Shown here one piece after another: positions 1 to 64,000 of a stretch of 64,000 nt of DNA; position 1 is the stretch's first letter, and each line of letters starts with the position of its first letter. The translations under genes and the position numbers were made by a program. Location of the stretch: assembly GCF_000179575.2 (NCBI RefSeq), contig NC_015636.1, positions 1,403,495 through 1,467,494 of the forward strand. Direction: 5' to 3'. A model generated the notes under the pieces. That model made no database searches, had not been told where the DNA came from, and worked only from the letters and a program-made list of their open reading frames with translations. The stretch comes from Methanothermococcus okinawensis IH1. GTDB lineage: Archaea; AGJL01; Methanococci; Methanococcales; Methanococcaceae.

Positions 1-707
1 TTTGTATAGGTATGTGTTGGAGATTTTTCAAAGGAAAATGTTCCATCTCCAAAACTCCACATAGTAAATATTATATTTCTACTTACCGAATAACTAAATT
101 TAACAGTGTCTCCTTCTACAATTTCAGTTTTATCAGCATTTACATTAACTTGTGTTGTATCTATACTTAATCCAGAAAATTCTTCATTCATTTTAATGTT
201 TGAGAAGTATTTTATTATAACAGTATTATTTGAGCCGTTGTATAAAATATCCCAAGTAGTTTTAGAATTTGAAGGACTACCATTAAAAATATATTTTGTA
301 TTGGAGATGTCCCCCACTACAAGCCAGTTATAAGTCAATGCCTTAGAATATGCAGTATTATTTAGATATCCGCACCATGATACTGGATATGGAAATGGAA
401 TGTTATATTTATGTGTAACTATTTTATTAGAACCATAATCTGTTTCTGTTAAATCCCCAAAATCCCATTTTGTAAATCCGCTATTTATAATATTTTGGGA
501 TATGTTATCTTTTGCTAACGCTTTAAATGTTAAAGTATCATTTACGTTATATGCAATAATATAAGAGTTATAGTTATTTGTGTAGTTTGAGCTATTTGTT
601 ATATTCATAGTATCTGAGTGAATTGGAATTATATAACCATTTGATGACCATAGAAATCCTCCAATACCAAACAAAATAATTATCTGAATTATATATTTAG
701 TATTCAT
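1..707 (-). CDS. Secreted PKD-domain surface protein, N-terminal part (cut by window edge)
   Basis: An open frame runs from an ATG at 707 to the window edge, giving 235 visible residues and no stop. Residues 5-20 are a hydrophobic signal segment ([12 protein letters not shown]) after one lysine. The rest is rich in N-x-S/T sequons, for example NITN, NYTN, NDT, NISQ, NNTA and NGS, as expected for an N-glycosylated envelope protein. A PKD-like stretch [15 protein letters not shown] lies at 81-95. A clear PKD motif, [19 protein letters not shown], lies at 217-235 and is truncated. PKD domains are beta-sandwich modules of archaeal surface proteins. The start has GGTGAAATT just upstream. Adhesion or S-layer function is inference. 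The C-terminus and any membrane anchor lie outside the window. Confidence 0.8.
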
Positions 708-885
708 AATTTCACCACTTATCATATAGAAAACATTGTGATTGGCACTAACTTTATACACATATACGTTGAAATTAAAATTTAAAATAAAATAACTAAT
801 CAACTTAGGGTATATTATTATTTTCTTGTTATATGCACTTCGTTTGATATGGGCTTCAGGTGTTGTATTATTTATTTGAGTGAAT

Positions 886-1323: not shown

Positions 1324-1776
1324 AATAATCACATATTATTTTAGTTTAAATAATGTGATAATTCCTTTATTTATTTTTTATTGCCTGTAATTATGATATT
1401 ACTATAAAAATATTATATTATTAATTTTAGTTATTAGTTATCTAAATAAATAATAAAATTGGGTATAATTTAAATAATAATTAAATATCAATATATTATT
1501 AAATATTGCAATTATAATATATATAATAATATAGTTAAAGATGTATTAAACACATGAGCTCCTATTGATGATAATCTATTGATAAAATATATAATAAATG
1601 CGCTTTTTGTTATTTTCAAAAGTTAACCTTATATATAATTTATTAACAAAATATATTTATCATTAACAAAATATAATTTATTATTAATAACATCTAAACT
1701 ATAAGTTTGGAATCTGAGGCATATAAAAGTCTCTTATTATTTTTATTTCCTATTTTAAATTAATGGATGTGATACC
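1324..1776. other. AT-rich divergent intergenic region
   Basis: This 453-bp gap lies between the divergent pilin-like and TPR genes. It is almost pure A/T. Visible items are a GAGCTC at 1556, a TATA-like run CTTATATATAAT near 1628-1640, two copies of ATTAACAAAATATA near 1640-1680, and a small inverted repeat AAACT-ATA-AGTTT at 1696-1708. The TATA-like run lies about 140 bp before the TPR start. I see no gene or RNA. Confidence 0.4.
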
Positions 1777-2388: not shown

Positions 2389-2691
2389 TTACTATATAGG
2401 ATGAATAATTACTAAGTGAGCTCCTATAATATAAAGTAAATTAGGTAATATTAATTCACTACTATTTTAAAAACTGCATTTTTTAAAGTAACTATTAATC
2501 CAAATTTAAAATTTAAATTATATATTCTGTAATTTGGTATTAGATTAATTAATAATTGATAGTATATTAGATTAATTAATGAAAATATTTATATAACAAA
2601 TTACTATACCATATTTTATTAATGTTTTTAGTTATATTTGAATAGTTAATATCTTAGAATGTTATTAAAAAATCTAATATATGGTGATAGG
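2389..2691. other. AT-rich intergenic region before the TusA-DsrE operon
   Basis: This roughly 300-bp gap holds a GAGCTC at 2418 and a probable promoter for the sulfur-carrier pair. AAATATTTATATAAC near 2583-2597 is a TATA-like box about 100 bp before the TusA start. The motif TATTAGATTAATTAAT occurs twice near 2538-2580. No coding frame or RNA is visible. Confidence 0.35.
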
Positions 2692-2904
2692 ATGGAGCTC
2701 GATGTTAGTGGAACGGTATGCCCAATTCCAGTATTAAAAACAAAAAAGGCATTAGATTCCATAGATGATGGGGAAGAATTAACTGTAATAGGGAATTACA
2801 AACCAGCACTCGAAAATATAGCAAGGTTTGTTGAAGAACATGGACACACAGTTGTATCTACCGAAGAAACTGAAAAAGGATTTAAAATTGTAATTAAAAA
2901 ATAA
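2692..2904 (+). CDS. TusA/SirA-family sulfur carrier protein
   Basis: This 70-residue protein has the family signature C-P-x-P in VCPIPVLKTKKAL, with Cys10 as the expected persulfide-carrying residue. Length and the beta-alpha-beta-alpha pattern fit TusA. These proteins accept sulfur as a cysteine persulfide and hand it on for thiolation of tRNA or cofactors, and in methanogens for other sulfur or selenium transfers. I chose the ATG at 2692 over the upstream ATG at 2659 because GGTGATAG lies just before it and the family starts here. The DsrE-like gene follows 13 bp downstream and is very probably co-transcribed. The acceptor cannot be identified. The Glu2-Leu3 pair is coded GAG-CTC, an instance of the repeated GAGCTC palindrome. 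Confidence 0.85.
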   Translation: MELDVSGTVCPIPVLKTKKALDSIDDGEELTVIGNYKPALENIARFVEEHGHTVVSTEETEKGFKIVIKK

Positions 2905-2917
2905 AAAGGTGATATTT

Positions 2918-5382: not shown

Positions 5383-6693
5383 ATGTTTAATTTAAATATA
5401 AACGGCATGTTACCTAAAAATATGGAGGATAGGGGTAAATTAATACTGAGAGACAATTTAAAAGAAATTGAAGAGATATTAAACCACAGAACTATACCAA
5501 AAAATGGATTAGATGATGAAAAAATAAAAATATTCTTAAAATTACTGTCTCTTATGGATACTGATAAAGACCCAAAAGCTATAAGGATAGGAGAAAGGGA
5601 AGGTAGGATATCCTCAAAAATTCAGGAAGAACTTGTTTCTGGATTTTGCCATGGCGTTGGAAGAAGCGGAAATCTAATCGACCCTCAGCCTAAGGCCCCC
5701 GGAGCAAGTGTGATGTATAAATTGACAAATAATATTTTAAAAAGTTTTTTAAAGAATTTGGGATTGAATGTTTATTCAATAGCTACTCCTGTGGCTACTG
5801 GAATGTCAATAGCACTGTGTTTAAGTGCGGCAAGAAAAAAATACAATTCAAATGTAGCTATATATCCTTATGCAGCACATAAAAGTCCGATAAAAGCCGT
5901 ATCTTTTGCAGGACTTAGAATGAGATTGGTTGAAACTAAGTTATATGAAGATGCTGTAAAGGTTGATGTTGGGGATATAGAAGATGCCATAAAAAAGGAA
6001 ATAAAATCCAACAATAATCCATGTGTTTTAAGCACCCTTACATTTTTTCCCCCAAGAGAAAGTGATGATATTGAAGAAATAGCAAAAATTTGTGATGAGT
6101 ATAATATTCCCCACATAATAAATGGAGCTTATGCCATTCAAAATAAATTTTATATAAATAAATTGAATAAAGCATTTAAATATAGGGTGGATGCAGTGGT
6201 GAGCTCATCCGATAAAAATTTACTTACCCCAATAGGCGGTGGGATAGTTTATTCAAAAAACAAAGAATTCTTAAATGAAGTATCATTCTGTTATCCAGGC
6301 AGAGCATGTGCAACACCAATTGTAACTATGTTGGTTTCAATGTTATCCTTGGGTTTAAACAAATATTTGGAGCTTATGAAAAAGCAGAAAGAAAGCAGAA
6401 AACTTCTGAATAATCTTTTAAAGGAATTAGCGGAAAAAACAAATAATAAAGTTTTAAATATTAAAAACCCCATATCATTAGGTATTACCGTAGGTTCAAA
6501 CCCTGTGGAAATAGCAGGGAAATTATACAATCTAAGAATTACAGGTCCAAGGGGAATAATGTCCTCAGATAAATTTGGTAATTGTTATTTGGGCAATTAT
6601 CCTTATAATTATGTTGTTATGAATGCAGCAATTGGTGTTAAAAATAAGGATATTATTGTTGCAGTTGAAAGATTAAAAAATGTCATATCATAA
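5383..6693 (+). CDS. spcS: O-phosphoseryl-tRNA(Sec) selenium transferase (SepSecS)
   Basis: This 436-residue PLP enzyme converts O-phosphoseryl-tRNA(Sec) to selenocysteinyl-tRNA(Sec) using selenophosphate, the last step of archaeal and eukaryotic Sec synthesis. Visible signatures are the substrate loop REGRISSKI near 72-80, HGVGRSGNLIDPQPKAPG at 90-107, TPVATGMSIALCL (135-147) and the PLP lysine in VVSSSDKNLLTPIGGG (Lys278). Length fits the family. It shows the organism encodes selenoproteins, although I found no in-frame TGA or SECIS candidate here. minD starts only 24 bp downstream on the same strand, so the two may share a transcript without an obvious functional link. Confidence 0.95.
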   Translation: MFNLNINGMLPKNMEDRGKLILRDNLKEIEEILNHRTIPKNGLDDEKIKIFLKLLSLMDTDKDPKAIRIGEREGRISSKIQEELVSGFCHGVGRSGNLIDPQPKAPGASVMYKLTNNILKSFLKNLGLNVYSIATPVATGMSIALCLSAARKKYNSNVAIYPYAAHKSPIKAVSFAGLRMRLVETKLYEDAVKVDVGDIEDAIKKEIKSNNNPCVLSTLTFFPPRESDDIEEIAKICDEYNIPHIINGAYAIQNKFYINKLNKAFKYRVDAVVSSSDKNLLTPIGGGIVYSKNKEFLNEVSFCYPGRACATPIVTMLVSMLSLGLNKYLELMKKQKESRKLLNNLLKELAEKTNNKVLNIKNPISLGITVGSNPVEIAGKLYNLRITGPRGIMSSDKFGNCYLGNYPYNYVVMNAAIGVKNKDIIVAVERLKNVIS

Positions 6694-6717: not shown

Positions 6718-7503
6718 ATGGCAATAACTATTGCAATAGCTTCTGGTAAGGGAGGCACTGGTAAAACTACAATTTCAGCCAATTTATCAGTAGCACTTTC
6801 AAAATTTGGAAAAGATGTAATTGTGCTTGATGCAGATATAGCTATGGCTAATTTGGAGCTCGTAATGGGTTTAGATGGGAAACCTATAACATTAAATGAT
6901 GTTCTTGCAGGTAGTGTAAGTGTAGAGCAGGCTATTTATGAAGGTCCTGCTGGTGTAAAGGTTATTCCGGCCGGTGTATCATTGGATAGTTTCAAAAAAG
7001 CTAAACCGGAGAAATTATTAGAGGTATTAACAAAGTTGCATGAGTTAGGGGAGATTATAATAATTGATTGTCCAGCAGGTATTGGAAAAGAAGCATTAAC
7101 CGCAATATCAACTGCTGAACATCTAATATTGGTGGTAAATCCCGAAATATCATCCATTTCTGATGCTTTAAAGGTTGTAGCTATTTCAAGAAGATTTGAA
7201 ACTAATATATTGGGAACAATAATTAACAGGACTACCGCAGAGGATTCCGAGCTCAGTGCTAAGGCAATTGAAACAATATTGGAAGTCCCTATACTTGGAA
7301 TAATTCCTGAAGACCCAAATATAAGGAGATGCGCAGCATTTGGAGAACCTATCGTAATAAGGTACCCTGATTCTCCTGCTTCACAAGCTATAATGCAAAT
7401 TGCAGCAAGATTAACTGGGAAGGAATATATTCCTAAAAAAACTGAGGAAAAATCGTTTATTAAAAAATTCATTAAAGGATTATTTGGGGGAGGTAAAAAA
7501 TGA
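6718..7503 (+). CDS. minD: MinD-family ATPase
   Basis: This 261-residue ATPase has the deviant Walker A SGKGGTGKTT at 9-18, DADIAMANLELVMGL (38-52) and IIIDCPAGIGKEALTA (switch II). It ends in a basic amphipathic helix, KSFIKKFIKGLFGGGKK, which is the membrane-targeting sequence typical of MinD. Archaeal MinD homologues position cell-surface structures such as archaella and chemoreceptor arrays rather than the division site. That role is known from haloarchaeal MinD4 and is inference here. The stop overlaps the start of the next gene by ATGA, so translation is probably coupled to the small membrane protein that follows. Confidence 0.9.
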   Translation: MAITIAIASGKGGTGKTTISANLSVALSKFGKDVIVLDADIAMANLELVMGLDGKPITLNDVLAGSVSVEQAIYEGPAGVKVIPAGVSLDSFKKAKPEKLLEVLTKLHELGEIIIIDCPAGIGKEALTAISTAEHLILVVNPEISSISDALKVVAISRRFETNILGTIINRTTAEDSELSAKAIETILEVPILGIIPEDPNIRRCAAFGEPIVIRYPDSPASQAIMQIAARLTGKEYIPKKTEEKSFIKKFIKGLFGGGKK

Positions 7504-9303: not shown

Positions 9304-9313
9304 AATAAGTAAA

Positions 9314-10321
9314 TTAATGATTATTATCTTTTAATATTTTTTTAAGCTCATCAAGATGTTTTTTAGTTCCAAATGCATATATAACATCATTTACTTCCAA
9401 TATAACATTAGGACTGGGGTTAATAATTACATTATCTCCCTTTTTTATGGCAAGTATTGTTGCACCGGAACTCTGCCTTATTTTTGATTCACTGATTGAT
9501 TTTCCCACAACTACTGAATTGGGTGAAATTGTAAATCTCCCTATCTCCATATCATGGGTGGTGTCCATTAGAGTAGATACAAAGTCTAAAATTTCTGGTT
9601 TCAATGTGAGCTCTGCTATTCTTAAACCACCTATGGTATATGGAGAGACCACTCTGTCTGCACCTGCTTTCAAAAGCTTATTAACTGAGGTATCATTATC
9701 CACTTTGGCAACAACATAAAGATTTGGATTAAATCCTTTGGCTGAGAGGGTGATAAATAAATTTTCGGCATCTGAACTAACTGATGCAATTAATCCCTTT
9801 GCTTTCTTTACACCAGCCCTTTCCAATACATCATCCGATGTAGCATCACCTACAACATATATCAAATTTTTATATCGGTCTAATTCATCTAAAATCTTTT
9901 TTTCATCTGCATCAATTACAACAAATGGAACTCCAGCTTTTTCAAATTTTTTAGCCACTATTTTTCCAATTCTTCCAAATCCACATAATATATAGTGATT
10001 ATTCATCTTTTTTAACTTATTTTGCATTTTTTTCAACCTTAATATTTTTTTGAATTGCCCCTCTATAAAAAATCCTGCAATAGATGCTACGGTATAAGCC
10101 ATAGCCCCTGTGCCGCATATAACATATATTAATGTTAAAATTCTTCCGTCAAATGTGGTGGGTATAATATCCCCATAACCTACGGTGGACATTGTGATTA
10201 TTACAACATATAGGGCTGTGAAAAAATCCCAATTCTCAAAATGCATGAGTCCTATGGTTGCTAATAATACAATAGCACATATCGTTCCAATCCCTAATTT
10301 TATTCGCTCTAATGATTCCAT
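9314..10321 (-). CDS. MthK-like potassium channel with RCK domain
   Basis: This 335-residue protein has two membrane helices (about 8-26 and 61-83) around a pore loop with the K+ selectivity filter TVGYGD at 46-51. A cytoplasmic RCK/TrkA-N domain with ILCGFGRIGK (111-120, Rossmann glycine motif) and a TrkA-C domain at about 255-330 follow. This is the MthK architecture: a tetrameric K+ channel gated by Ca2+ or nucleotide binding to an RCK ring. MthK of Methanothermobacter also makes a free RCK protein from an internal start near residue 107. A methionine sits at the same place here (Met106), but no clear binding site precedes it. AAGGGATT precedes the ATG. Confidence 0.93.
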   Translation of the reverse strand: MESLERIKLGIGTICAIVLLATIGLMHFENWDFFTALYVVIITMSTVGYGDIIPTTFDGRILTLIYVICGTGAMAYTVASIAGFFIEGQFKKILRLKKMQNKLKKMNNHYILCGFGRIGKIVAKKFEKAGVPFVVIDADEKKILDELDRYKNLIYVVGDATSDDVLERAGVKKAKGLIASVSSDAENLFITLSAKGFNPNLYVVAKVDNDTSVNKLLKAGADRVVSPYTIGGLRIAELTLKPEILDFVSTLMDTTHDMEIGRFTISPNSVVVGKSISESKIRQSSGATILAIKKGDNVIINPSPNVILEVNDVIYAFGTKKHLDELKKILKDNNH

Positions 10322-10597: not shown

Positions 10598-11437
10598 ATG
10601 ATAGATTCAAAAACTAAGATGTTAGGTCTTATTGGTCATCCTGTTGAGCATTCATTATCCCCTATAATGCATAATGCGGCATTAAGAGATAAAAATCTAA
10701 ATTATGTTTATCTCGCATTTGATGTTCTTCCAGAAAATTTAAAATATGTTGTTGATGGGTTAAAATCTCTTGGAACAGTGGACGGATTTAATGTAACTAT
10801 CCCTCACAAAGTAAATATAATGAAATATCTTGACGAAATAGACAGAGAGGCTGAGTTCATAGGTGCAGTAAATACTGTAAAAATAGCAAATAATAAAGCA
10901 GTAGGATATAACACCGATGGATTAGGGGCAAGGAGGTCTCTTGAAGAAGAAATTGGAAAGGTAGAAAATAAAAATATCTTAATAGTAGGGGCAGGTGGAG
11001 CTGCAAGGGCAGTAGCATTTGAATTTGCAAAAAATAACAATTTAACAATCATAAATAGAACTGTTGAAAAGGCGGAGCTCCTATCAAAAGAAATATCTGA
11101 AAAACTAAATAAACCTATATATTACAACAATTTAGATGTAGATATTGATGACTTTGATATAATTATACATACAACACCAATAGGTATGTATCCAAATATT
11201 GAAGCTAAACCTATTATAGATACAGATGGGATTAAAGATAATATGGTTGTAATGGATTTAATATATAATCCAAAAGAGACCATACTTTTAAAAGAGGCTA
11301 AAAAGCATGGGGCAAAAACAATTAACGGACTTGGGATGCTGGTATATCAAGGAGCAATAGCTTTTGAAATATGGACTGGTGTTAAGCCAGATATTGATAT
11401 TATGAAAAGGACACTTTATAATTCTTTAAAATACTAA
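10598..11437 (+). CDS. aroE: Shikimate dehydrogenase
   Basis: This 279-residue enzyme reduces 3-dehydroshikimate to shikimate with NADPH in aromatic amino acid synthesis. Signatures are LGLIGHPVEHSLSPIMHN (9-26, substrate serines), FNVTIPHK with catalytic Lys71, YNTDGLG, the NADP loop ILIVGAGGAARAVAFEF near 127-143, and INGLGMLVYQGAIAFE at the C-terminus. Length matches the family. I chose the ATG at 10598 because GGTGGT at 10585-10590 is properly spaced before it. The ATG at 10583 overlaps that site. The upstream 276 bp are A-rich and featureless. Confidence 0.95.
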   Translation: MIDSKTKMLGLIGHPVEHSLSPIMHNAALRDKNLNYVYLAFDVLPENLKYVVDGLKSLGTVDGFNVTIPHKVNIMKYLDEIDREAEFIGAVNTVKIANNKAVGYNTDGLGARRSLEEEIGKVENKNILIVGAGGAARAVAFEFAKNNNLTIINRTVEKAELLSKEISEKLNKPIYYNNLDVDIDDFDIIIHTTPIGMYPNIEAKPIIDTDGIKDNMVVMDLIYNPKETILLKEAKKHGAKTINGLGMLVYQGAIAFEIWTGVKPDIDIMKRTLYNSLKY

Positions 11438-11974: not shown

Positions 11975-12910
11975 ATGAAGGTATTGCTTTTTGAATATGC
12001 AGTAGGCAGTGGTGAAATCGTAGAAAACACTATCTTTGAAGAAGGAAAATTAATGTATGATAAATTACTTAACGACTTTTTAAAGGAGGGTTATTCTGTT
12101 ATTTCTATTGTTGATAACAAAAATAGCAATTATTATTCCAATTTAAAAAACAGGAATTTAGAGATACATGCACCAGAAGAAAATTATAAATCAAAATTAA
12201 ATGAATTACTATCCAATAGAGATATAGATATGGCGTTAATAATTGCACCAGAAAGCGACAATATATTATACGATTTAACCAAAATAGTTGAAAAATATGA
12301 CAATGTTATAAATTTAGGCTCTTCTTCAAAAGGCATTAAGATAGCAGGAAATAAATATTTAACATACAACAAAATTAAGGATTATGTAAAAACACCAAAA
12401 ACATTTCCATTAAAAAAATATATTGTAAAAGAAATCGATGGTTGCGGAGGAGCTCACCAAATAGTAGATGAAAATTATATTGTCCAAGAGTTTGTAGAAG
12501 GGAAACCATATTCAATAAGTTTTATAGTTCAAAATATGGACTATGATAGAAAAATATATCCGTTATGCTTAAATAAGCAATATATAAATAAAAAGTACTG
12601 TGGCGGTGAAATAAACATATCTCATCCATTGAAAGATGAAATTATTAAAGAATCAGAAAAAGCATTAAAGAGAATAGAAGGATTAAACGGTTATGTCGGT
12701 GTAGATGTTATTGTAAATAATAACGATATATATATACTCGAAATAAACCCACGAATTACAACATCGGTAGCAGGACTAAATATAGAACCCTCACTTGCAA
12801 AACTTTTGGTTGATAATGTGTCTAAAAAGGAAAAGGAATTGATATATAAATTAAATAATGGAAAAAAATTTGTTAGGGATGAAACTGGAAAATTTATTTT
12901 TAAGCGGTAA
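11975..12910 (+). CDS. mfnD: Tyramine-glutamate ligase MfnD (ATP-grasp)
   Basis: This 311-residue ATP-grasp protein starts MKVLLFEYAVGSGEIVENT. A lysine-bearing strand YIVKEIDGCGGAH is followed by IVQEFVEGKPYSISFI, and the metal-binding end of the fold is DIYILEINPRITTS. Overall it matches the MJ0815/MfnD family, which joins L-glutamate to tyramine by a gamma-glutamyl bond in methanofuran synthesis. I chose the ATG at 11975 because TTGGTGGTTTT precedes it and the family begins MKVLLFEYA. An upstream in-frame ATG at 11936 would add 13 non-conserved residues. The 3' end overlaps the convergent antiporter gene by 11 bp. The assignment rests on recalled family resemblance. Confidence 0.85.
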   Translation: MKVLLFEYAVGSGEIVENTIFEEGKLMYDKLLNDFLKEGYSVISIVDNKNSNYYSNLKNRNLEIHAPEENYKSKLNELLSNRDIDMALIIAPESDNILYDLTKIVEKYDNVINLGSSSKGIKIAGNKYLTYNKIKDYVKTPKTFPLKKYIVKEIDGCGGAHQIVDENYIVQEFVEGKPYSISFIVQNMDYDRKIYPLCLNKQYINKKYCGGEINISHPLKDEIIKESEKALKRIEGLNGYVGVDVIVNNNDIYILEINPRITTSVAGLNIEPSLAKLLVDNVSKKEKELIYKLNNGKKFVRDETGKFIFKR

Positions 12911-21207: not shown

Positions 21208-21219
21208 TCGGAGCTCCGA
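21208..21219. repeat. 12-bp palindrome TCGGAGCTCCGA, copy 1
   Basis: A perfect 12-bp palindrome in the short gap between hepT and hsdR, 25 bp before the hsdR start. An identical copy lies at 21867-21878 before mntA. The core is GAGCTC, the over-represented hexamer of this window. It could be an operator, since it is symmetric and upstream of a start, or a mark of insertion of the mntA-hepT pair. Confidence 0.6.
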
Positions 21220-36494: not shown

Positions 36495-37220
<726 letters not shown>

Positions 37221-54114: not shown

Positions 54115-54486
54115 ATGGCAGATGTTGTAAGAACTCTGGTGGTTGATGATTCTGCATTTATGAGAAATATTTTAAAAAAAATTTTAGCCTCAACAAACAA
54201 ATATGTTGTAGTGGGAGAAGCATCAAATGGTAAAGAAGCTATCGAAAAAACAAAAGAACTAAATCCTAACTTAATCACTATGGATATTGTAATGCCTGAG
54301 CTCACGGGGATAGAAGCTACAAGGGAAATAAAAAAAGAGTTTCCTGATATAAAGATTGTAATGTGCACCTCAGTTGATCAGGAAAAAAAGATGATTGAAG
54401 CCATAGATGCAGGTGCGGATGGCTATATAGTTAAACCATTTCAAGCTCCAAAAATTCTTGAACAACTTAATAAATTATTTCAATAA
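54115..54486 (+). CDS. cheY: Chemotaxis response regulator CheY
   Basis: This 123-residue single receiver domain has the acidic pair in LVVDDSAFMR (Asp11, Asp12), the phospho-accepting Asp57 in LITMDIVMPELTG, the switch Thr/Ser in VMCTSVDQ and the Lys in GYIVKPFQAP. No output domain is present. CheA phosphorylates it and CheF delivers it to the motor. AATAGGTGAAGTAAT precedes the ATG. It is 77 bp after cheF and 37 bp before the first cheC. Confidence 0.97.
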   Translation: MADVVRTLVVDDSAFMRNILKKILASTNKYVVVGEASNGKEAIEKTKELNPNLITMDIVMPELTGIEATREIKKEFPDIKIVMCTSVDQEKKMIEAIDAGADGYIVKPFQAPKILEQLNKLFQ

Positions 54487-54523
54487 ATAATTATTTTCAT
54501 TACAAAATTTTCAAAGGGTTATT

Positions 54524-55240
54524 ATGAAATGTGGCAATGTATATATTTCGCCTAAATCATGGGATATTATAATGCAAGATATTATTAATGAAGAAATGAA
54601 AGAAAAAATGATATATTCTGAAAAGGAATGTAATTTTGTAAAAAATTTTCGTATAATGGGATTAACCAGAGTTGAAGAAATAGGAAAATCTGCTGCTGAA
54701 AAAGCATGTGGTTTTATAAGGGATATGACTGGAAATCATGTGGAGACCAAATCAGTTAATGTTATGATTACTACTCCATTGGAGATTAAAGAAGAAAAAA
54801 TTAAAAATGACTATAAAATAGTAACTGGAATTAATTTCAGTGGAGATATAAATGGAATTGGTGTATTAATATTCTCAGAAGATTGTGCATTAAAACTGTC
54901 GAAATCTATGCTCGCAGGAATGGGCATGGAGGATTACAGCGATGAGTTAGATGAAATGAAAATATCTGCCCTTAATGAAACATGTAATTTGATTATATCT
55001 GCTTATGTAGATACCATAGCTAATTTTATGGATATATCATTGAACATGTCCCCACCGTTTTTTATCAAAGGTATTGAATATGAAATAATTGAAAATATTT
55101 TTGGAGATTGTGGCGTAAATAACCAGGACTTAGTATTAACCTTTAAATCTGGGCTTTTTTCTCAAGGAATTGGTTCAGGTTTTGAAGTATTGATTGTAAT
55201 GCCTCCAAATTCAATAAATACATTATTTAAAAAATTATAA
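54524..55240 (+). CDS. cheC: Chemotaxis phosphatase CheC, first copy
   Basis: This 238-residue member of the CheC/CheX/FliY family has one clear active motif, ISALNETCNLIISAYVDTIA with E-x-x-N, followed by SPPFF about 23 residues on. The first pseudo-repeat, RVEEIGKSAAEKACGFIRDM, lacks the Asn and is probably inactive. An N-terminal extension of about 35 residues (WDIIMQDIINEEMKEKM) is unlike bacterial CheC. CheC dephosphorylates CheY-P and binds CheD. GGGTTATT lies before the ATG. The next cheC begins 31 bp later. Confidence 0.9.
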   Translation: MKCGNVYISPKSWDIIMQDIINEEMKEKMIYSEKECNFVKNFRIMGLTRVEEIGKSAAEKACGFIRDMTGNHVETKSVNVMITTPLEIKEEKIKNDYKIVTGINFSGDINGIGVLIFSEDCALKLSKSMLAGMGMEDYSDELDEMKISALNETCNLIISAYVDTIANFMDISLNMSPPFFIKGIEYEIIENIFGDCGVNNQDLVLTFKSGLFSQGIGSGFEVLIVMPPNSINTLFKKL

Positions 55241-55271
55241 TCTTTTATAAATTAAAATTAGGGGGTTATTA

Positions 55272-55877
55272 ATGAGTATTTTAGAATCTATGAAAAAAAT
55301 AACAAGCATAGGGCAGGATGCATCGGAGAATATTGCTAAGGCTTTTGAAGGATTAACTGGGGAAAATACTGAGGTTCAATTTTTAGGAACTCGATTTGTA
55401 CCAGTGGAGTATTTACCTGAGCAATTTGGAGATGAAACCTGTAAAATTGTTCGTATAGATTTTAATGGTGTGCTTTCAGGCAGAACTTTAATGATTTTGC
55501 CAAAAGAAGATGCTGTAAAATTAGAGAAACTTCTTCTTTTAGACATTCTTTGGGATAGTTTAGTAAATAAAGTAGAACTGCCGGATTATTCTGAGATGGA
55601 AGTTTCCCTAATAGGTGAAGTGGCAAATATTGTAGTGGCTGCATTTTTAAATGTTTTTGCTAATACCTTAGAGGATGAAATAAATATTACGCCCCCTGAG
55701 TTTATTGAAGACAGTGGATTCTCAGTGGTAGAATCATTAATTCTTGAAATGGGTGACAATTTAGACATTGCTCTTGTATTTGATAATAAAATAGATATTG
55801 TTGGTAAATTCCCAATAAAGTGTAATCTTCTGATTTTAATTAATCCAGAAACTGTCGAAAATCTTAATATCCTTTAA
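55272..55877 (+). CDS. cheC: Chemotaxis phosphatase CheC, second copy
   Basis: This 201-residue CheC-family protein has an E-x-x-N motif in EVSLIGEVANIVVAAFLNVF followed by TPPEFI. The first pseudo-repeat, KITSIGQDASENIAKAFEGL, is again degenerate. It is shorter than the upstream copy and lacks its N-terminal extension. Two diverged CheCs in tandem are common in archaeal che loci, where they may contribute different phosphatase or CheD-binding roles. AGGGGGTTATTA is a strong binding site. The gene ends 27 bp from the convergent cheR. Confidence 0.9.
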   Translation: MSILESMKKITSIGQDASENIAKAFEGLTGENTEVQFLGTRFVPVEYLPEQFGDETCKIVRIDFNGVLSGRTLMILPKEDAVKLEKLLLLDILWDSLVNKVELPDYSEMEVSLIGEVANIVVAAFLNVFANTLEDEINITPPEFIEDSGFSVVESLILEMGDNLDIALVFDNKIDIVGKFPIKCNLLILINPETVENLNIL

Positions 55878-55904
55878 ATTTTAAAAATTAGAATATAATT
55901 ATAA

Positions 55905-56729
55905 TTAATTTTTTTTAGCCATGTAAATCCTTTCTCTATGATTTATTGGTGTGAATAATGTTCTGGCTTTTCCATGCAATATTTCAGTTTTTCCAAGAAT
56001 TAAATATCCATTATTAACAAGACCCTCATAAAATTTTAAAAATAATTCAGCTTGAATTTTTTTATCAAAATATATTATGACATTTCTACAAAGTATAATG
56101 TTCATTCCTTTTAAAGGGGGTTCTTTTATTAAATCATGCTTTTTAAATTTAACATATTTTTTAATATCCTTTTTAAGTTCGTATTCTTGTTCATTTAATT
56201 TTATAAAATATTTGGATATCAATTCTTTATCAATATTTTTCAGCTGTTTATGAATATAGACCCCTTTTTTAGCCCTATCCAATATTTTGCTATCCAAATC
56301 AGTTCCAATAATACTTACAGGCATAAATTTTCTGTTATGTTTTTCTTTTAATTCATTTATCATAATTGCCAGTCCATATGGCTCTTCACCTGAGGAGCAG
56401 CCTGCACTCCATATTTTTAAACCCCTAATAGTCCTTTTATCCATTATAAGATTTTCCAATATTTTGTATATCTCTTTATATACAGTATTATCCCTCCAAA
56501 ACTCTGTTACATTTACTGTTAAGGTATCTTCCAATTTTTTATATTCGTCTGGATTATTTTTGATTAAATATTCATAATACTCTCGATAATTTTTACATTT
56601 ACATGCCCTCATCCTAACTGCTACTCTTCGTTTTATATATGCGTCTTTATATTGTTCTATATTTATTTTTAACTTAAATCTAATTTCCCTTTTTATTTTA
56701 TCAAAATATATGTCATCGTTAGTTTTCAT
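55905..56729 (-). CDS. cheR: Chemoreceptor methyltransferase CheR
   Basis: This 274-residue protein has an N-terminal helical domain (YIKRRVAVRMRACKCKNYRE) and an AdoMet methylase part. It holds LTVNVTEFWRDNTVYKEIYK, IWSAGCSSGEEPYGLAIMIN, IIGTDLDSKILDRAKKGVY and NIILCRNVIIYFDKKIQAEL. It methylates glutamates of the MCPs for adaptation. The ATG at 56729, seven bases after AAAGGTA, is preferred to the ATG at 56735. It follows MCP1 by about 80 bp in the same direction. Confidence 0.95.
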   Translation of the reverse strand: MKTNDDIYFDKIKREIRFKLKINIEQYKDAYIKRRVAVRMRACKCKNYREYYEYLIKNNPDEYKKLEDTLTVNVTEFWRDNTVYKEIYKILENLIMDKRTIRGLKIWSAGCSSGEEPYGLAIMINELKEKHNRKFMPVSIIGTDLDSKILDRAKKGVYIHKQLKNIDKELISKYFIKLNEQEYELKKDIKKYVKFKKHDLIKEPPLKGMNIILCRNVIIYFDKKIQAELFLKFYEGLVNNGYLILGKTEILHGKARTLFTPINHRERIYMAKKN

Positions 56730-56812
56730 AGACATTACCTTTGTTTATTGTTATAAAAATAAAATAATCGAAAATTAAAAAATAGTTCAAAAAAGATTAA
56801 AAAAGAATAAAC

Positions 56813-58858
56813 TTAATATCTGTAATTTCTGAAATCATTAACCAATGTTCCATCGGGAGACAGGTTTTTAGGAACCTGTTTTCCCATTTTTTTCAACTTA
56901 TATCTCTCACACATTTCGTAATTACCTTTACAATATTTATCTTTTAACTTTTCGGCTACTTCTGGATTGAGTTCAGGGTCATGCACAAATGGACATTTTG
57001 GAAGGTTTACACATTCAGTATCTGATACTCTAAATTTATCTACCTTTTGAGAGACTATATTGGCAATATTAACAGCCTCTTTAATAGCTCTAGCAGTCTC
57101 TTCAACAACTGCTTCTTGTTCTTCGGCACTTGCTGTTAATTCCTCAGCAGTAGCAGCAAACTCTTCGGATATTGAAGCTATATCTTGAACATTTTTCAAC
57201 GCATTCTGAATATTATCAGTAGAATCCTGAGCCTGTTTTTTAATTGCATTTATTCTTTCCAAAGTTTTATCTATTCCATCCTTAATTTTAAGAAATGCAC
57301 CATTCACTTCATCTATTGCAACAACGCCTTTATCTACTTCGTCCTTACCAGTTAGACCTAAGTCAATAGTTTTTTCAATCCTGTTGTGGATACTTGAAAT
57401 AGTTTTATTTATGTCATCAACGGATTTTCCAATCTCTTCTGCAAGTGATTTAATTTCACTTGCAACTACTGCAAATCCTTTTCCAGCTTCACCCGCTCGT
57501 GCAGCTTCTATGGATGCATTTAATGCCAATAAACCAGTTTGTTCTGCAATATCTTTAATCAATACTGTAACTTCGTTGATTTTCTTGCTCTCATCCCCTA
57601 ACTCTTGAATAGTTCTTCCTAAATCATCTATCACGTTGGCTATATTTTGCATGGTATCTATTGCGTTTTCTACCTTCTTAACACCTGTTTCTGAGTAACC
57701 TTCCACCTCCCTTGCAGTTTCTACTCCTTCTTCAGCCTTTTCAGTGGTTAATTTTACAAGTTCAGCAGTTCCGCCTAAATCTTGTGATAGGTCCTGTAAT
57801 TTTGTAGATTGGTCAGTTGCTGCTGTGGCAACCTGTGATGCTGCATCAGCCACCTGGTCAGAGATTTCCTTTACCCTTTCAGATTCTTCCTGCATAGTGT
57901 TTATCTCTTGGTTTAGTTGGGATATTTGGTTTTTCAGGTCATTTGTCATGTTTGCTATATTGTCCAATGCTTTATTGATAACTTTTTCAACTTCTTTATC
58001 TTTTCCACTATCATCTAATCTAACGGTGAGTTCACCCTCAGCTACCTTATTCATTGTATTATGTATCTCGATAAACATGCTTTCCAATTTTTTGCGCTCT
58101 TGCTCCTGTCTTTTTGTATCTTCCCGCAAATTATTATGTAGTTTCTTGATATTGAGATATATATTTCCAATTTCATCCTCATTGAATTTTACATTTTCTT
58201 TTATATCATAATGTCCATTGGCTAATTCACTAGTAATTCTTTCGAGGTCTTTTAAAGGATTCAACACTGTTTTTCGTATAATAATTATGGAGAGTATGCC
58301 TGTAAATAGGGCAAATACAACAGATGCTATTGCCACATCATTTGCAAATTTAAGTTTTTCATCGTATAATTTATTATATAATGTAACTGCTTTGTTCATT
58401 TCAGATAACAGTTCCATATTATGTTCTTTTAGATACAACAACGCTTCTTTAAATTCAGGGTCATTTGGATTTTTTGAACATATTATTTTTATTTTTTCAT
58501 AGAATGGATTCCATATCTCTTTTACTTTAAGAAGTTGAGCTTTAACATCATTGGAAGCTGGTGGAATTCCTAATTTTTTATCACCATATATTAAAGCATT
58601 TAATGTTTTGTCAAATAAGTCTGATGTTTCTTTCAAATCTTTTTTATCCTCAACATGACCTGCACTTATCATAAATGCCTCTTTGGTCATTTTTTGACTC
58701 AGCATTCTCTGTTTTCCAGCAAGATTAATTATATTTCCATCATGCTGCATACTACTATGCACAATCATGGTCGTGAAAGATACTATTGCAACAATTAGTA
58801 TTAATATCGCTAAAATTGATAAAATCTTGGTTTTAACAGATATTTTGTTCAATTTCAT
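56813..58858 (-). CDS. Methyl-accepting chemotaxis protein with PilJ-type sensor and Cys-rich tail (MCP1)
   Basis: This 681-residue receptor has a first membrane helix at about 10-31. An extracellular domain has the PilJ/type IV pili-type signature [21 protein letters not shown] second helix at about 170-190 precedes HAMP, a second HAMP-like stretch and a long signalling coiled coil with the hairpin tip [22 protein letters not shown]-terminal extension carries cysteines in [28 protein letters not shown] and VNLP. The ATG at 58858 follows GGGGATATT. The signalling half is DNA-identical to that of MCP2, a sign of gene conversion. The ligand is unknown. Confidence 0.93.
57061..57973 (-). repeat. 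Near-identical MCP repeat, copy in MCP1
   Basis: Aligns without gaps, at an offset of 2025 bp, with 59086-59998. Positions 57097-57973 (877 bp) show no difference by eye. It codes for the MCP signalling hairpin. Identity stops sharply at both ends. At the 5' coding end the proteins diverge at [16 protein letters not shown] against [16 protein letters not shown]. Confidence 0.85.
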
Positions 58859-59047
58859 AATATCCCCATTAATTAACATGAATTTAAAATTTTTGATTAT
58901 CTCTAAAAAATTCGATGTATTGAATTTAGTAATAAGAATTATATAAATTATTTGTGTATGTAATTGTGTAGCATCAATATTTTTAAAAATAAAGGTGTTA
59001 TAGCAGTTAAATTATAAATATAAAATAGAAAATAGTTAAAAAATAAT

Positions 59048-60439
59048 TTAAGCTTTAAATTTATCAACAGATAGTGCTAACTTATTGGCAATATTAACAG
59101 CCTCTTTAATAGCCCTGCCGCTCTCTTCAACAACTGCTTCTTGTTCTTCGGCACTTGCTGTTAATTCCTCAGCAGTAGCAGCAAACTCTTCGGATATTGA
59201 AGCTATATCTTGAACATTTTTCAACGCATTCTGAATATTATCAGTAGAATCCTGAGCCTGTTTTTTAATTGCATTTATTCTTTCCAAAGTTTTATCTATT
59301 CCATCCTTAATTTTAAGAAATGCACCATTCACTTCATCTATTGCAACAACGCCTTTATCTACTTCGTCCTTACCAGTTAGACCTAAGTCAATAGTTTTTT
59401 CAATCCTGTTGTGGATACTTGAAATAGTTTTATTTATGTCATCAACGGATTTTCCAATCTCTTCTGCAAGTGATTTAATTTCACTTGCAACTACTGCAAA
59501 TCCTTTTCCAGCTTCACCCGCTCGTGCAGCTTCTATGGATGCATTTAATGCCAATAAACCAGTTTGTTCTGCAATATCTTTAATCAATACTGTAACTTCG
59601 TTGATTTTCTTGCTCTCATCCCCTAACTCTTGAATAGTTCTTCCTAAATCATCTATCACGTTGGCTATATTTTGCATGGTATCTATTGCGTTTTCTACCT
59701 TCTTAACACCTGTTTCTGAGTAACCTTCCACCTCCCTTGCAGTTTCTACTCCTTCTTCAGCCTTTTCAGTGGTTAATTTTACAAGTTCAGCAGTTCCGCC
59801 TAAATCTTGTGATAGGTCCTGTAATTTTGTAGATTGGTCAGTTGCTGCTGTGGCAACCTGTGATGCTGCATCAGCCACCTGGTCAGAGATTTCCTTTACC
59901 CTTTCAGATTCTTCCTGCATAGTGTTTATCTCTTGGTTTAGTTGGGATATTTGGTTTTTCAGGTCATTTGTCATGTTTGCTATATTGTCCAATGCTTTGT
60001 TAAACGCCTTTTGAAGCCTGTTATGTTTCCCAGATTCATCTAGTCTAATAGTTAAATCTCCATTTTCAAGTTTAATCATGGCATTTGTAATTTCTTCAAA
60101 AGTTCTTCTAGTTCCTTTTTTATATTCCTCACATGAATTAAGTTTTTTGATTACTTCGCCAAGTTCTTTTATTATTTCATCGAATACCTCAGAATTATTT
60201 TTCATTTTCGTAAAGTCTTTATTCAATAATTTACCCATATCTCCAATAAAAACACACATGGTTTTTGAATCCTTTTTTAAAATGTTATATCCTATTGCAT
60301 ATGAAATTACTATGGATATAATCAAAGCACCGAATAGATATATAATCATCTTTTCTATAATATCAGGACACAACATACAAAGGGTCAAAAATAAAATTAT
60401 TGCTGGCGTCGAAGATAGTAACATCAATTTTTTATCCAT
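59048..60439 (-). CDS. Methyl-accepting chemotaxis protein without extracellular sensor (MCP2)
   Basis: This 463-residue receptor starts [20 protein letters not shown] and has two membrane helices close together, with a loop of only about a dozen residues (CPDIIEKMI). It therefore lacks an extracellular ligand domain. A short cytoplasmic linker precedes a HAMP-like segment and a signalling region identical to that of MCP1. Its C-terminus ends soon after the coiled coil ([10 protein letters not shown]), without a cysteine-rich tail. It may sense an intracellular or membrane state. The ATG at 60439, behind AAAGGTGAAACA, is preferred to one at 60496 that would overlap cheD by 47 bp. The start lies 10 bp after the cheD stop. 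Confidence 0.92.
59086..59998 (-). repeat. Near-identical MCP repeat, copy in MCP2
   Basis: Partner of 57061-57973. The 877-bp core is 59122-59998. Outside the core only short matches remain (for example TTAACAGCCTCTTTAATAG near the 3' coding end). Confidence 0.85.
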
Positions 60440-60449
60440 TGTTTCACCT

Positions 60450-60911
60450 TTAAATAATTTTTTCATTATTTCTATATCTAATAACTGCTTTTCCATCCTT
60501 CAAAAAAAATTTAACTGTTCTGCTGACATCCCCACCTATGTCTTCACCAATTATGCGTATTTTATACTGTTTTAATTCCTGTCTTGCCGCATCAGCATTT
60601 TTTTTACCTATGTCTATCGCACTAGATTTTTTAAACATTGCAGCACCGCCAACTATTTTTGCAGTAAGTCTGTCAGTTCTTGCACCCAATATAACCATCT
60701 TTGCAATAATGGCAGGAATGGCAGTATTAACATATTTTCCCGGATTTTTAATATTGTCATCCATGGTTTTTGGTAACATTACATGAGCCATCCCTCCAAT
60801 CTTTTTACCTCTATCATACAACATTATAGCCACACAAGAACCCAGCAATGTTTCAAGCACCTCGGGACTTTTTGAAACTTCAAAACCACCCATTTTAACT
60901 TTAAGCACCAT
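60450..60911 (-). CDS. cheD: Chemoreceptor glutamine deamidase CheD
   Basis: This 153-residue protein has the catalytic Cys26 in [19 protein letters not shown] and His43 in [10 protein letters not shown]. Later, [10 protein letters not shown] and [20 protein letters not shown] are strongly conserved CheD segments. It deamidates receptor glutamines to make methylation sites and binds CheC. It lies between cheA and MCP2, with 9 and 10 bp gaps, in a tight operon. GGTTGTTAGC precedes the ATG. Confidence 0.96.
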
Positions 60912-60920
60912 GCTAACAAC

Positions 60921-63785
60921 CTAAATATTGTTTAAATCTAATATGAGTGCTACCCTTCCATCACCCAATATTGTGGCTCCAGCAAGACCATGGATATTTT
61001 TCAAAATACCTGTGAGAGGTTTAACAACAATTTCTTCCCTTCCAATTACATCATCAACCACTACGCCTAATTTTCCGCTATTTCGTTCTATAACAATTAT
61101 ATAAACATCTTCAGACTCTTCAGCGGAATAATCATTAAGTATATCTCTTAACCAAATCACAGGTAGGATATGATTTCGGTATATTATGGCATCCTGACCT
61201 TCTAAATTTGATATATCTTCTTTTTTAACATGAGTAACATCCAAAACACTTGTTAATGGTATTGCATAAACTTGGTCTCTTAATTTAATCAACAATGCAA
61301 GAATGATTGCCATTGTTAAAGGTAATTGAAGTATTATCTTTGTTCCTTTTTCTTTTTCAGAGTATAATGATACACTACCTCCGAGGGACTCTATTTTGGA
61401 TTTTACAACATCCATTCCTACACCCCTTCCAGAAACATCTGAAACTTTTTCAGCAGTGCTAAATCCCGGTAAAAATACTAGATTAATGGCTTCCTGGTCT
61501 GATAGTTTATTGGCATCATCTTCCGATATAATTCCTTTTTCCACAGCTTTCTTCTTTATAATTTCAGGGTCTATTCCTTTACCATCGTCTTCAATTGTAA
61601 TAAGCACATGATTTCTTTCTCTTGTAGCTACTAATTTTAGCGTTCCCTTTCTAGGCTTTCCTTTTTTCTCCCTCTCTTCTGGGGTTTCGATACCATGGTC
61701 CAACGAGTTTCTAATAATATGTGTTAATGGTTCCGCGAGCTCATCCAATACAGTTCTATCAAGTTCAATATCTGAACCTTCGATTATTAATTCAACCTCT
61801 TTATTAAGGGCTTTTGAGGTATCTCTCACAGTTCTAGGAAACCTGTTGAATATAAAAGATACAGGTATCATCCGCATAGCCATTACTTCTTCCTGGAGCT
61901 CAGTAGCAAGCATGTTAAGTCTATTCACAGCATTGTGTAATTCCTTAATATTGTATTTATTTGCGATTTGAGTAAAATTTGCTCTATTTATAACTAATTC
62001 ACCAACTAAATTCATAAGTTTGTCCAATTTTTCAATATTTATTCTTACAGTCTGGGTTAATGTTTTCTTTTCTCCAGATTTTTCAGAAGGTTTCTTTTTT
62101 GAGTTTTGTGGTTTAGTAGATGTACTGCTTTTTTCATGTGGTTTGGAATTTTTTTTCATTTTTGACTGTTCTTTTAGATATTCAGGGGTTTCTATTATGA
62201 CATTCTTTATTTCTGGAATACTAAACACTATTTCTTTTAAATCATCCTCTTCTTTATTTGAAATTATATAAACTACAACCTCATTACCATCAAATTCTCC
62301 CTCTTGAAGTTTTTCACAAGAAGGTTCTGTTTTAATTATTTCTCCCACATTTTTAAGCTCTTTAATGGCCATGTAGGCACGAACAGATTTTAAAATACAC
62401 TCTTCATCGATTATTATTTTTAATTTATATGCATCTTTTATTCTATCATCTTTCACAGTTTCATTATTATTACCTCCTTCATCCACCCCTCCAATATTTC
62501 CAATTTTAAAATCGATGTTTATCGGAGCTACCGCAATGTACTCCATTTCACACATGGTATCGAAAACCTTTGTTATTTCGTCCAATTGTTTATTTGATAG
62601 AAAAATAATTTCAAGCTCATCATGGCTTTTTTCTTTAATTTCTTCTTCACTGGGGGTTGAAATTAATATATCTCCAATTTTTTTAATATTGGATATAACC
62701 ATGGATAATCTAACAGATTTTAAATCACAATCTTCTAGGACTTTGGATTTTAAATGATATAGTGTATATCCGTTATCCACCATTTCCTTTATATGTTCAG
62801 CATATTTATTAAAATCAAACTTGGAATGGTCTAATATTACCCCATATTCTTTAACATTATCAGATGAGCTCCGATGTTCATGCTTCAATGTTATTGCATC
62901 ATCTATTTTTTTATTTATTTTAGATAAATCAATGTCTAAATTATCAATACCGCCATTTTCCTCGAATGATTTTGCAATTTTCTCCATTGCATCTAATGAA
63001 CATTTCAATGCTTCCATGACTGATTTGTTAAATATAATATCCTCATTTAGAACATAATTAACTAAATCATTTATTTTTGTTAGTGTTTCTTTTAAATCAT
63101 CATAATTAAAGGCGTCAGCAACAATGTTAAGAACTTCAACAGATTTACTCATCTGACTAAGGATTTCATCAAGATTTTTCGGTTTTTTTATCTCGTTTTC
63201 ATTTCCTTCATTTTTTTCATCGTTTAAATTTGTTTTAATATTTACTGTTGTTTTTGGTTCCTTTAACACTATACTAATGGTGGATTTGGTATTTTGAGTA
63301 TTGTTATTTTCTTTCTTCGATTCTTCATTTTCTGCAACTTTTGAAATATTTACATTACTTTTTGAAGCTTCTGAGGCAGAGCTTCCCCCATTACCCATGT
63401 ATTTTTCTTTCAATGTTTTTATTTCATTAACTATACTATCAACATCGATAGAGCTAGTCTCAGCGTCTTCTTCAATTTCATTAACCATGGTTTCAAGAGC
63501 ATCAAGACATTTAAATAACAAATCCATAATTTCTGAATTTACAGCTATTTCACCGTTTCTTATGTTATCCAATATATCCTCCATATGATGCGTAAGGTTG
63601 GAGATATTATCAAAACCTAGGGTTCTTGCAGAACCTTTCAATGTATGGGCAGACCTGAATATTAAATTTATAATGTCTTTATTATCGGGATTATTTTCAA
63701 GTTCAACTAAGTTTTGATTTAAAGCTTCAAGATGTTCCGTAGCTTCAGCCATAAATAACTCTTTATATTGTTCCATTTCATCCAT
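60921..63785 (-). CDS. cheA: Chemotaxis histidine kinase CheA, expanded
   Basis: This 954-residue kinase is far longer than the usual 650-700. Hpt lies at about 5-125 with His47 in FRSAHTLKGSARTLGF. A degenerate second Hpt-like half at about 230-300 resembles residues 60-130 but lacks the histidine. Two tandem P2-like domains follow at about 341-421 and 453-533, each with a LKSVR motif. The dimerisation and ATPase core starts near 577 (TVRINIEKLDKLMNLVGELV; HIIRNSLDHGIETPEE; DDGKGID; GRGVGMDVV), and the CheW-like end has QVYAIPLTSVLDV. Start 63785, behind GGGGGCG, overlaps the cheB stop. Confidence 0.95.
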   Translation of the reverse strand: MDEMEQYKELFMAEATEHLEALNQNLVELENNPDNKDIINLIFRSAHTLKGSARTLGFDNISNLTHHMEDILDNIRNGEIAVNSEIMDLLFKCLDALETMVNEIEEDAETSSIDVDSIVNEIKTLKEKYMGNGGSSASEASKSNVNISKVAENEESKKENNNTQNTKSTISIVLKEPKTTVNIKTNLNDEKNEGNENEIKKPKNLDEILSQMSKSVEVLNIVADAFNYDDLKETLTKINDLVNYVLNEDIIFNKSVMEALKCSLDAMEKIAKSFEENGGIDNLDIDLSKINKKIDDAITLKHEHRSSSDNVKEYGVILDHSKFDFNKYAEHIKEMVDNGYTLYHLKSKVLEDCDLKSVRLSMVISNIKKIGDILISTPSEEEIKEKSHDELEIIFLSNKQLDEITKVFDTMCEMEYIAVAPINIDFKIGNIGGVDEGGNNNETVKDDRIKDAYKLKIIIDEECILKSVRAYMAIKELKNVGEIIKTEPSCEKLQEGEFDGNEVVVYIISNKEEDDLKEIVFSIPEIKNVIIETPEYLKEQSKMKKNSKPHEKSSTSTKPQNSKKKPSEKSGEKKTLTQTVRINIEKLDKLMNLVGELVINRANFTQIANKYNIKELHNAVNRLNMLATELQEEVMAMRMIPVSFIFNRFPRTVRDTSKALNKEVELIIEGSDIELDRTVLDELAEPLTHIIRNSLDHGIETPEEREKKGKPRKGTLKLVATRERNHVLITIEDDGKGIDPEIIKKKAVEKGIISEDDANKLSDQEAINLVFLPGFSTAEKVSDVSGRGVGMDVVKSKIESLGGSVSLYSEKEKGTKIILQLPLTMAIILALLIKLRDQVYAIPLTSVLDVTHVKKEDISNLEGQDAIIYRNHILPVIWLRDILNDYSAEESEDVYIIVIERNSGKLGVVVDDVIGREEIVVKPLTGILKNIHGLAGATILGDGRVALILDLNNI

Positions 63786-64000
63786 TTTCAACGCCCCCGA
63801 TATTTTTAATTAATTTTACAATAGTTTCTGGTATTTTTGATGGAGGCAATACTGCATCTGCAATATTCATTTCAATAACAGCTTTTGGCATGCCAAACAC
63901 AACACAGGTATCCTTATTTTGGGCTATTATTTTTCCTCCTTTTTCTTTTATTAATTTCAGACCATATGCTCCATCTCTGCCAATTCCTGTTAAAATTACT
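63778..64000 (-). CDS. cheB: Chemotaxis methylesterase CheB, C-terminal part (cut by window edge)
   Basis: Seventy-three codons are visible, entering at the right edge and ending at TGA 63778-63780. They read VILTGIGRDGAYGLKLIKEK, then IIAQNKDTCVVFGMPKAVIE and ADAVLPPSKIPETIVKLI. This is the CheB methylesterase end, including the G-x-x-x-D-G motif with a catalytic-triad Asp and the FGMP segment. CheB removes methyl groups and deamidates receptors after phosphorylation by CheA. The receiver domain lies outside the window. The stop overlaps the start of cheA by 8 bp, so the two are translationally coupled. Confidence 0.94.
   Translation of the reverse strand, partial: VILTGIGRDGAYGLKLIKEKGGKIIAQNKDTCVVFGMPKAVIEMNIADAVLPPSKIPETIVKLIKNIGGVENG

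Follow-up and report, generated by a model that had tools for sequence, protein, structure and literature searches.

The window analysed here is a stretch of 64,000 nucleotides of the chromosome of the archaeon Methanothermococcus okinawensis IH1 (NC_015636.1, positions 1,403,495 to 1,467,494). Its genes include ileS, a Type I restriction system (HsdR, 18115-21183, with eight GAGCTC sites; HsdM, 23268-24887) and a set of chemotaxis genes, and across them lie copies of GAGCTC, which is a highly iterated palindrome (HIP) of an archaeal lineage and an archaeal counterpart of HIP1 (GCGATCGC), reportedly described in cyanobacteria by Robinson in 1995. The exact count in the window was 64, as a preliminary description of this DNA had estimated, and the positions named there were right to within 0-2 bases (2695, 6856, 13020, 18266, 21211, 28384, 36611, 47269, and 61737). 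The sites, found by exact match and with strand given as ".", are listed here together with a site-free stretch.

1556..1561. GAGCTC site 1
2418..2423. GAGCTC site 2
2695..2700. GAGCTC site 3
6201..6206. GAGCTC site 4
6856..6861. GAGCTC site 5
7249..7254. GAGCTC site 6
9608..9613. GAGCTC site 7
11075..11080. GAGCTC site 8
12450..12455. GAGCTC site 9
13020..13025. GAGCTC site 10
13727..13732. GAGCTC site 11
14687..14692. GAGCTC site 12, in ileS
14756..14761. GAGCTC site 13, in ileS
15455..15460. GAGCTC site 14, in ileS
16564..16569. GAGCTC site 15, in ileS
17843..17848. GAGCTC site 16
18266..18271. GAGCTC site 17, in hsdR
18760..18765. GAGCTC site 18, in hsdR
19012..19017. GAGCTC site 19, in hsdR
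19387..19392. GAGCTC site 20, in hsdR
19738..19743. GAGCTC site 21, in hsdR
19902..19907. GAGCTC site 22, in hsdR
20641..20646. GAGCTC site 23, in hsdR
21088..21093. GAGCTC site 24, in hsdR
21211..21216. GAGCTC site 25, favoured context CGGAGCTCCG
21870..21875. GAGCTC site 26, favoured context CGGAGCTCCG
22564..22569. GAGCTC site 27
24190..24195. GAGCTC site 28, in hsdM
24660..24665. GAGCTC site 29, in hsdM
25190..25195. GAGCTC site 30
25574..25579. GAGCTC site 31
26315..26320. GAGCTC site 32
26850..26855. GAGCTC site 33
27883..27888. GAGCTC site 34
27954..27959. GAGCTC site 35
28384..28389. GAGCTC site 36
28812..28817. GAGCTC site 37
29296..29301. GAGCTC site 38
30098..30103. GAGCTC site 39
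31841..31846. GAGCTC site 40
32200..32205. GAGCTC site 41
32698..32703. GAGCTC site 42
33728..33733. GAGCTC site 43
35364..35369. GAGCTC site 44
36611..36616. GAGCTC site 45
37161..37166. GAGCTC site 46
37516..37521. GAGCTC site 47
37977..37982. GAGCTC site 48
38064..38069. GAGCTC site 49
39250..39255. GAGCTC site 50
41041..41046. GAGCTC site 51
42174..42179. GAGCTC site 52
43197..43202. GAGCTC site 53
44387..44392. GAGCTC site 54
47269..47274. GAGCTC site 55
47448..47453. GAGCTC site 56
49083..49088. GAGCTC site 57
51000..51005. GAGCTC site 58
51329..51334. GAGCTC site 59
51785..51790. GAGCTC site 60
54298..54303. GAGCTC site 61, in cheY
61737..61742. GAGCTC site 62, in cheA
61896..61901. GAGCTC site 63, in cheA
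62866..62871. GAGCTC site 64, in cheA
54304..61736. HIP-free stretch, chemotaxis cluster (cheX-like genes, cheR, two MCPs, cheD), 0 sites

The whole genome (G000) carries 2,070 copies of GAGCTC, with 2,057 on the 1,662,525-bp chromosome (1.24/kb) and 13 on the 14,930-bp plasmid. The window would be expected to hold 3.3 copies from independent bases, 3.1 under a first-order Markov model (Markov-1), and 4.7 under Markov-2, in keeping with the earlier expectation of about 4, and the chromosome 82 (Markov-1) or 138 (Markov-2). Higher orders, which had been named as possible grounds for refutation, raised the window expectation to 12.5 (Markov-3) and 34.9 (Markov-4); these values are still lower than 64, but we judge neither to be a fair null because most GAGCT and AGCTC 5-mers are the motif itself. 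When palindromes were compared genome-wide, as had also been proposed, GAGCTC was the only one in such excess, and the runner-up by observed/expected ratio on the chromosome was ATCGAT at 1.5-fold. The control CTCGAG, for which no excess had been noticed before, occurred 0 times in the window and 6 times in the genome versus 2,070 for GAGCTC. Taking as genes the open reading frames called in this analysis (not an annotation), the chromosome holds 1,949 coding copies against ~78 expected and 108 intergenic copies against 1.7-3.6 expected, and the overall excess was 16- to 25-fold in genes and intergenic DNA. As in other HIPs, a single palindrome is in gross genome-wide excess, near one per kb, in coding, non-coding, and extrachromosomal DNA. 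The observation is strong, and the literature searches turned up no earlier account of over-abundant GAGCTC in archaeal genomes.

The excess acts at the level of DNA, as it was seen in every coding phase, in intergenic DNA, on the plasmid, and in a prophage. Under a null in which synonymous codons were redrawn while amino acids and codon-boundary bases were kept, 118 GAGCTC were expected in genes and 1,880 were seen (16-fold), and phases 0, 1, and 2 held 1,030, 660, and 219 sites, respectively. Codon bias was rejected on the basis of this null, the use of all three phases, and the intergenic excess, which bears out the preliminary description where it placed the motif in all three frames and in gaps and considered it not simply codon bias. 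GAG and CTC are, as stated there, rare (1.8% and 0.47% of all codons), and ~48% of CTC codons (1,022/2,142) fall inside GAGCTC. Where a single base is free to complete the motif (xGA-GCN-C), the alanine codon was GCT in 641 of 665 cases (96%; GCC 14, GCA 10, GCG 0), compared to a baseline of ~25% of Ala codons outside this context. Similarly, 29% of the 3,534 Glu-Leu dipeptides were spelled GAGCTC, while simple arithmetic with surrounding codon rates leads one to expect only ~23 dipeptides so spelled. Glu-Leu pairs were retained in a relative to a similar extent whether spelled GAGCTC or otherwise (0.62 versus 0.60; 0.575 versus 0.53), and the pressure therefore acts within protein constraint; a drive on amino acids, of which this comparison gave no sign, was rejected. 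The sites are favoured one by one, mostly at synonymous positions.

The preference extends beyond the six bases. We measured flank preferences at wobble positions only, and with both sides pooled there was a single flank preference around an exact palindrome. The favoured flanked form was CNGAGCTCNG in G000 and GGAGCTCC in the relative G009 (one contig, 99% completeness). In G000, the first flanking base was C at 3.0-fold its expectation, and the second flanking base outward was G at 4.0-fold and A at 0.21-fold. Accordingly spelled codons follow the motif: Gln was CAG rather than CAA in a ratio of 86:1 (2843:3958 overall), Pro was CCG in 84 cases and CCA in 7, and GAGCTCAA with its mirror was nearly excluded (3% of Glu-Leu pairs). 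The same flanks affected CTC after other residues, or GAG before other residues, far less. In G009, enrichment was 5.5-fold for C at +1 and 3.9-fold for C at +2 (forms GGAGCTCC and GGGAGCTCCC), and GGAGCTCC reached 123-fold its second-order expectation in a 220-kb sample. This form accounted for 1259/1645 (77%) of the GAGCTC sites in G009, compared to 335/2070 (16%) in G000, 191/1515 (13%) in G019, and 14% in G015. Overall, these are two dialects of one shared GAGCTC core, with lineage-specific flanks of two bases per side.

Having established the excess in one genome, we evaluated its distribution among Methanococci, a check that the preliminary description had suggested. It was confirmed in 4 of 36 genomes (G000, 2,070; G009, 1,645; G015, 1,315; G019, 1,515) and did not extend to the remainder, which carry 4-229 copies per genome. 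Among the HIP-minus relatives are the single cells AD-155-C09, M21, and E23, as judged from match coordinates. The excess is therefore patchy among relatives and takes alternate forms (GGAGCTCC in G009), as described for HIPs. In a tree built from isoleucyl-tRNA synthetase, which is encoded in the window, the four HIP-plus genomes did not group as one clade: G019 was sister to another genus, and G000 with G015, and G009, were early branches of the group g1, whose other members are without the excess. Gain followed by losses and repeated gain are both possible. Two further observations concern other words in these genomes. AGCT itself was avoided in the HIP-minus genomes of g1 that were sampled, and it was strongly depleted in the HIP-minus sisters G014, G016, L216, L217, and L220 (~45 versus 300 per 100 kb in HIP-plus genomes), the kind of deficit that restriction at AGCT might have left behind. 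Also, GATC, CTAG, GTAC, ACGT, GTNNAC, and CTNNAG were nearly absent from the G000 chromosome and the G009 sample and normal in G014, and G000 avoids these palindromes although hardly any matching methyltransferases occur there.

The relatives were represented by DNA samples, of 84 kb for G015 (judging by match coordinates, the metagenome-assembled genome S013_52_esom; sampled as matches to joined fragments of 24 G000 proteins), 220 kb for G009, and 60 kb for G019. Conservation of individual sites, a check that had been suggested, was examined within such samples. G000 and G015 were 84% identical in the DNA compared. GAGCTC was retained in G000 at 60/69 (87%) of G015 sites and in G015 at 60/98 (61%) of G000 sites, compared to identity of 36% for control hexamers with four G/C and 45% for all hexamers. 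There were 38 private sites in G000 versus 9 in G015, an asymmetry that suggests weaker maintenance in G015, where the density was 0.89/kb in the sample and the motif filled 20/23 xGA-GCN-C positions and 21% of Glu-Leu pairs. This sister genome may be losing the palindrome and could help to single out the gene responsible. Farther out, G000 and G009 shared 61/246 alignable sites, and proteins of G000, G009, and G019 are only ~70% identical, yet all three genomes carry the excess. Sequences one mismatch away from GAGCTC occurred at 0.4-1.7-fold, except two that are confounded by avoidance of GATC or GCGC, and they showed no enrichment of mismatches at the first or last base such as is seen with HIP1. 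The near-flat neighbours indicate that what is favoured is the complete hexamer rather than any single base change. They would fit a preference for intact sites that works in both directions, whether through selection or biased repair, while a one-base repair system would be expected to leave the other neighbours elevated.

Sites were spaced at random. The coefficient of variation (CV) of GAGCTC spacing was 1.03, compared to 0.997 +/- 0.022 for random placement, and 240 gaps were <100 bp (237 expected). Occupancy of potential sites did not depend on nearest-site distance, strand, position in gene or genome, or a codon-bias proxy (C-ending codon index), and was lower only at >1.5 kb from the next site, reflecting site-poor islands. 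A range function or an uptake signal is disfavoured because diminishing returns would be expected and none were seen; a function of density or range was rejected, as occupancy was flat against distance, and the segregation motif of the preliminary description fared no better given the Poisson spacing and the indifference of occupancy to neighbouring sites. The poor islands were picked after inspection and their P values are uncorrected. They include a surface-glycan cluster (1,339,315-1,348,123; 0 sites versus 10.9 expected), early prophage genes (2 versus 12.7), and the chemotaxis stretch of the window (54304..61736; 0 versus 8.8, P 1.6e-4 before correction), which is the second longest GAGCTC gap on the chromosome. 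Structural genes of the prophage were at host-level density (11 versus 8.2 expected). The island pattern fits a slow build-up of GAGCTC in DNA resident in the host. The prophage, head-tailed and located at G000:C2 ~312-341 kb, is itself a mosaic of GAGCTC density, and an IMG/VR search for its relatives returned a single contig, whose capsid protein was 100% identical and which is apparently the same prophage.

In cyanobacteria, genomes that carry a HIP are reported to encode one or more methyltransferases that can methylate it, and a model of methyl-directed repair, with saturation near one site per kb, was built on that correlation, which is not part of the original definition of a HIP (Elhai 2015, PMC4390886). 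We therefore searched for families PF00145, PF01555, PF02086, PF02384, and PF07669 (cut-offs in G009 of 1e-8 for PF02384 and 1e-3 for PF07669). No cognate enzyme was found in G000 or G009 within these five families, and no methyltransferase of them was common to all four HIP-plus genomes. What G000 does have is a Dam-family enzyme, which G009 and G019 lack, together with two Type I HsdM and, on the plasmid, a PglX-like protein; no C5 (PF00145-type) or N6_N4-type DNA methyltransferase was found there, and a motif-IV scan of its open reading frames gave nothing else convincing. In G009, PF00145 and PF02086 gave only weak sub-cutoff matches on one frame common to both, PF02384 and PF07669 gave none, and the sole true PF01555 enzyme adjoins an MjaI-family nuclease and was therefore assigned, by family, to CTAG. 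For a Type II restriction-modification (R-M) system recognising GAGCTC, no cognate methyltransferase was found either; the SacI-type nuclease family PF09566 was not searched.

We consider the best explanation, at a probability of roughly 0.42, to be a site-by-site drive exerted by a palindrome-reading protein, through biased repair or conversion or weak selection per site. Mechanistically, a two-fold-symmetric (dimeric), sequence-specific candidate protein would read GAGCTC and bias the fate of mutations site by site. The most likely route would be a steering of local repair or gene conversion in favour of the intact palindrome, to which the high number of chromosome copies per cell might contribute, and we hold such local bias only tentatively to be the drive; alternatively, each bound site might bring a tiny benefit. 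The strength of the drive would be ~ln(16) to ln(40), or roughly 3-4 in scaled-selection units, and the flank dialects might record the divergence of the reader. Several points weigh against this explanation. No reader protein was found, with gene content of HIP-plus and HIP-minus genomes not screened, and NucS (PF01939, a candidate mismatch nuclease) was absent from all four HIP-plus genomes. One-mismatch sites were slightly less conserved than controls (36-40% the same); being only slightly less stable, they do not reveal an efficient, fast conversion machine. Moreover, the choice of drive is one that we infer, because at equilibrium the pattern would be identical under weak selection and under biased repair. 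A repair or recombination signal is possible. Somewhat better than an even chance can be given to the broader proposition of a methylation-independent HIP, in which an archaeal palindrome-reading protein multiplies the 6-10 bp site that it recognises into the thousands, with a specificity that has diverged between species to give the dialects.

Other explanations account for parts of these data. The sites might be selected binding sites of a chromosomal protein, with a role in architecture, recombination, or as a self mark and a small fitness benefit each, which would agree with the palindromic 10-bp context, the lineage dialects, and the conservation of sites with avoidance of protein change; we find this doubtful, as there was no density dependence, no spacing rule, and no dependence on gene position or the codon-bias proxy, and HIP-minus relatives manage without the excess. 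The methylation mark named among the possible causes in the preliminary description is unlikely given the five-family search above; it would call for an orphan methyltransferase of unrecognised type acting on GAGCTC, with the sites kept up through methyl-directed repair or an epigenetic role. It does have the cyanobacterial precedent (PMC4390886), and enzymes can be missed: the Methanococcus methyltransferase M.MaeIII was overlooked by annotation until 2023 (PMC10113651), and AGCT-specific m4C orphan methyltransferases exist in other archaea (PMC10609329). The M.MaeIII model resembles CamA, however, and the enzyme probably has the sort of motif for which the scan looked. A DNA uptake signal, whereby transformation favours fragments with GAGCTC and the motif accumulates through biased recombination, seems improbable. 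Its density of about one per kb, the dialects around a conserved core, the site-poor islands that look horizontally acquired, and the natural transformability of Methanococcus maripaludis (PMC10133366) speak for it, but known uptake sequences (DUS and USS) are described as non-palindromic and evenly spaced (PMC1939737) whereas GAGCTC is Poisson, occupancy is no lower where another site is near, and the g2 genomes (apparently Methanococcus) lack the excess. Finally, a decaying relic of a lost SacI-like R-M system might be read into the fewer sites of G015 (0.89/kb, with 38 versus 9 private sites), yet it is very improbable in view of the 96% occupancy at xGA-GCN-C in G000, the 87% of G015 sites retained there, and the persistence of the excess across G000, G009, and G019.

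Set beside known systems, GAGCTC is closest to HIP1 and the alternate HIPs of cyanobacteria (Elhai 2015, PMC4390886), in that one GC-rich palindrome is hugely over-represented, occurring roughly once per kb, chiefly within genes, and patchily across relatives. The likeness to HIP1 drawn earlier holds in these respects: a singular genome-wide palindrome about once per 0.8 kb, patchy, and not due to codon bias. The differences are the archaeal host, the core with species flank dialects, the cognate methyltransferase not found in the families searched, one-mismatch sites that are not enriched, and no spacing or saturation effect. DUS and USS, of Neisseriaceae and Pasteurellaceae, evolve by molecular drive (PMC1939737), and GAGCTC resembles them in density, mode of drive, and dialects; it differs in being an exact palindrome without orientation, in its uneven, Poisson spacing (CV 1.03), and in that there is no evidence of uptake. 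The E. coli very-short-patch (VSP) repair system enriches its own CCWGG site through a sequence-specific repair bias, and Neisseria DUS occur in lineage dialects. A drive on GAGCTC would likewise be a sequence-specific bias enriching its own site, but VSP repair corrects one base change, so that other neighbours should stay elevated, whereas those of GAGCTC are nearly flat, and G000 has no C5 methyltransferase. Sites of SacI-type restriction enzymes are identical in sequence to GAGCTC; genomes usually avoid restriction sites, as this one does GATC, CTAG, and GTAC, whereas GAGCTC is enriched. HIP1 has lacked an explanation since 1995, and under the leading model HIPs are coupled to DNA methyltransferases. 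A HIP of comparable strength in a second domain of life, for which the families searched gave no cognate methyltransferase, with two dialects and close HIP-minus relatives, is an independent natural experiment, and a methylation-independent HIP, if true, would decouple HIPs from methyltransferases and reveal a new means by which word content builds up in genomes. The responsible protein may be among the genes common to the four genomes and missing from their sisters, which makes the question directly testable.

Two minor observations remain. Among 22 Methanococcaceae genomes, NucS was found only in G021 (g4), plus a weak match in G016, and M. jannaschii has NucS. In the window, two adjacent chemoreceptor genes (56813-58879 and 59048-60496) have in common a long near-identical signalling domain, which suggests recent duplication or gene conversion.

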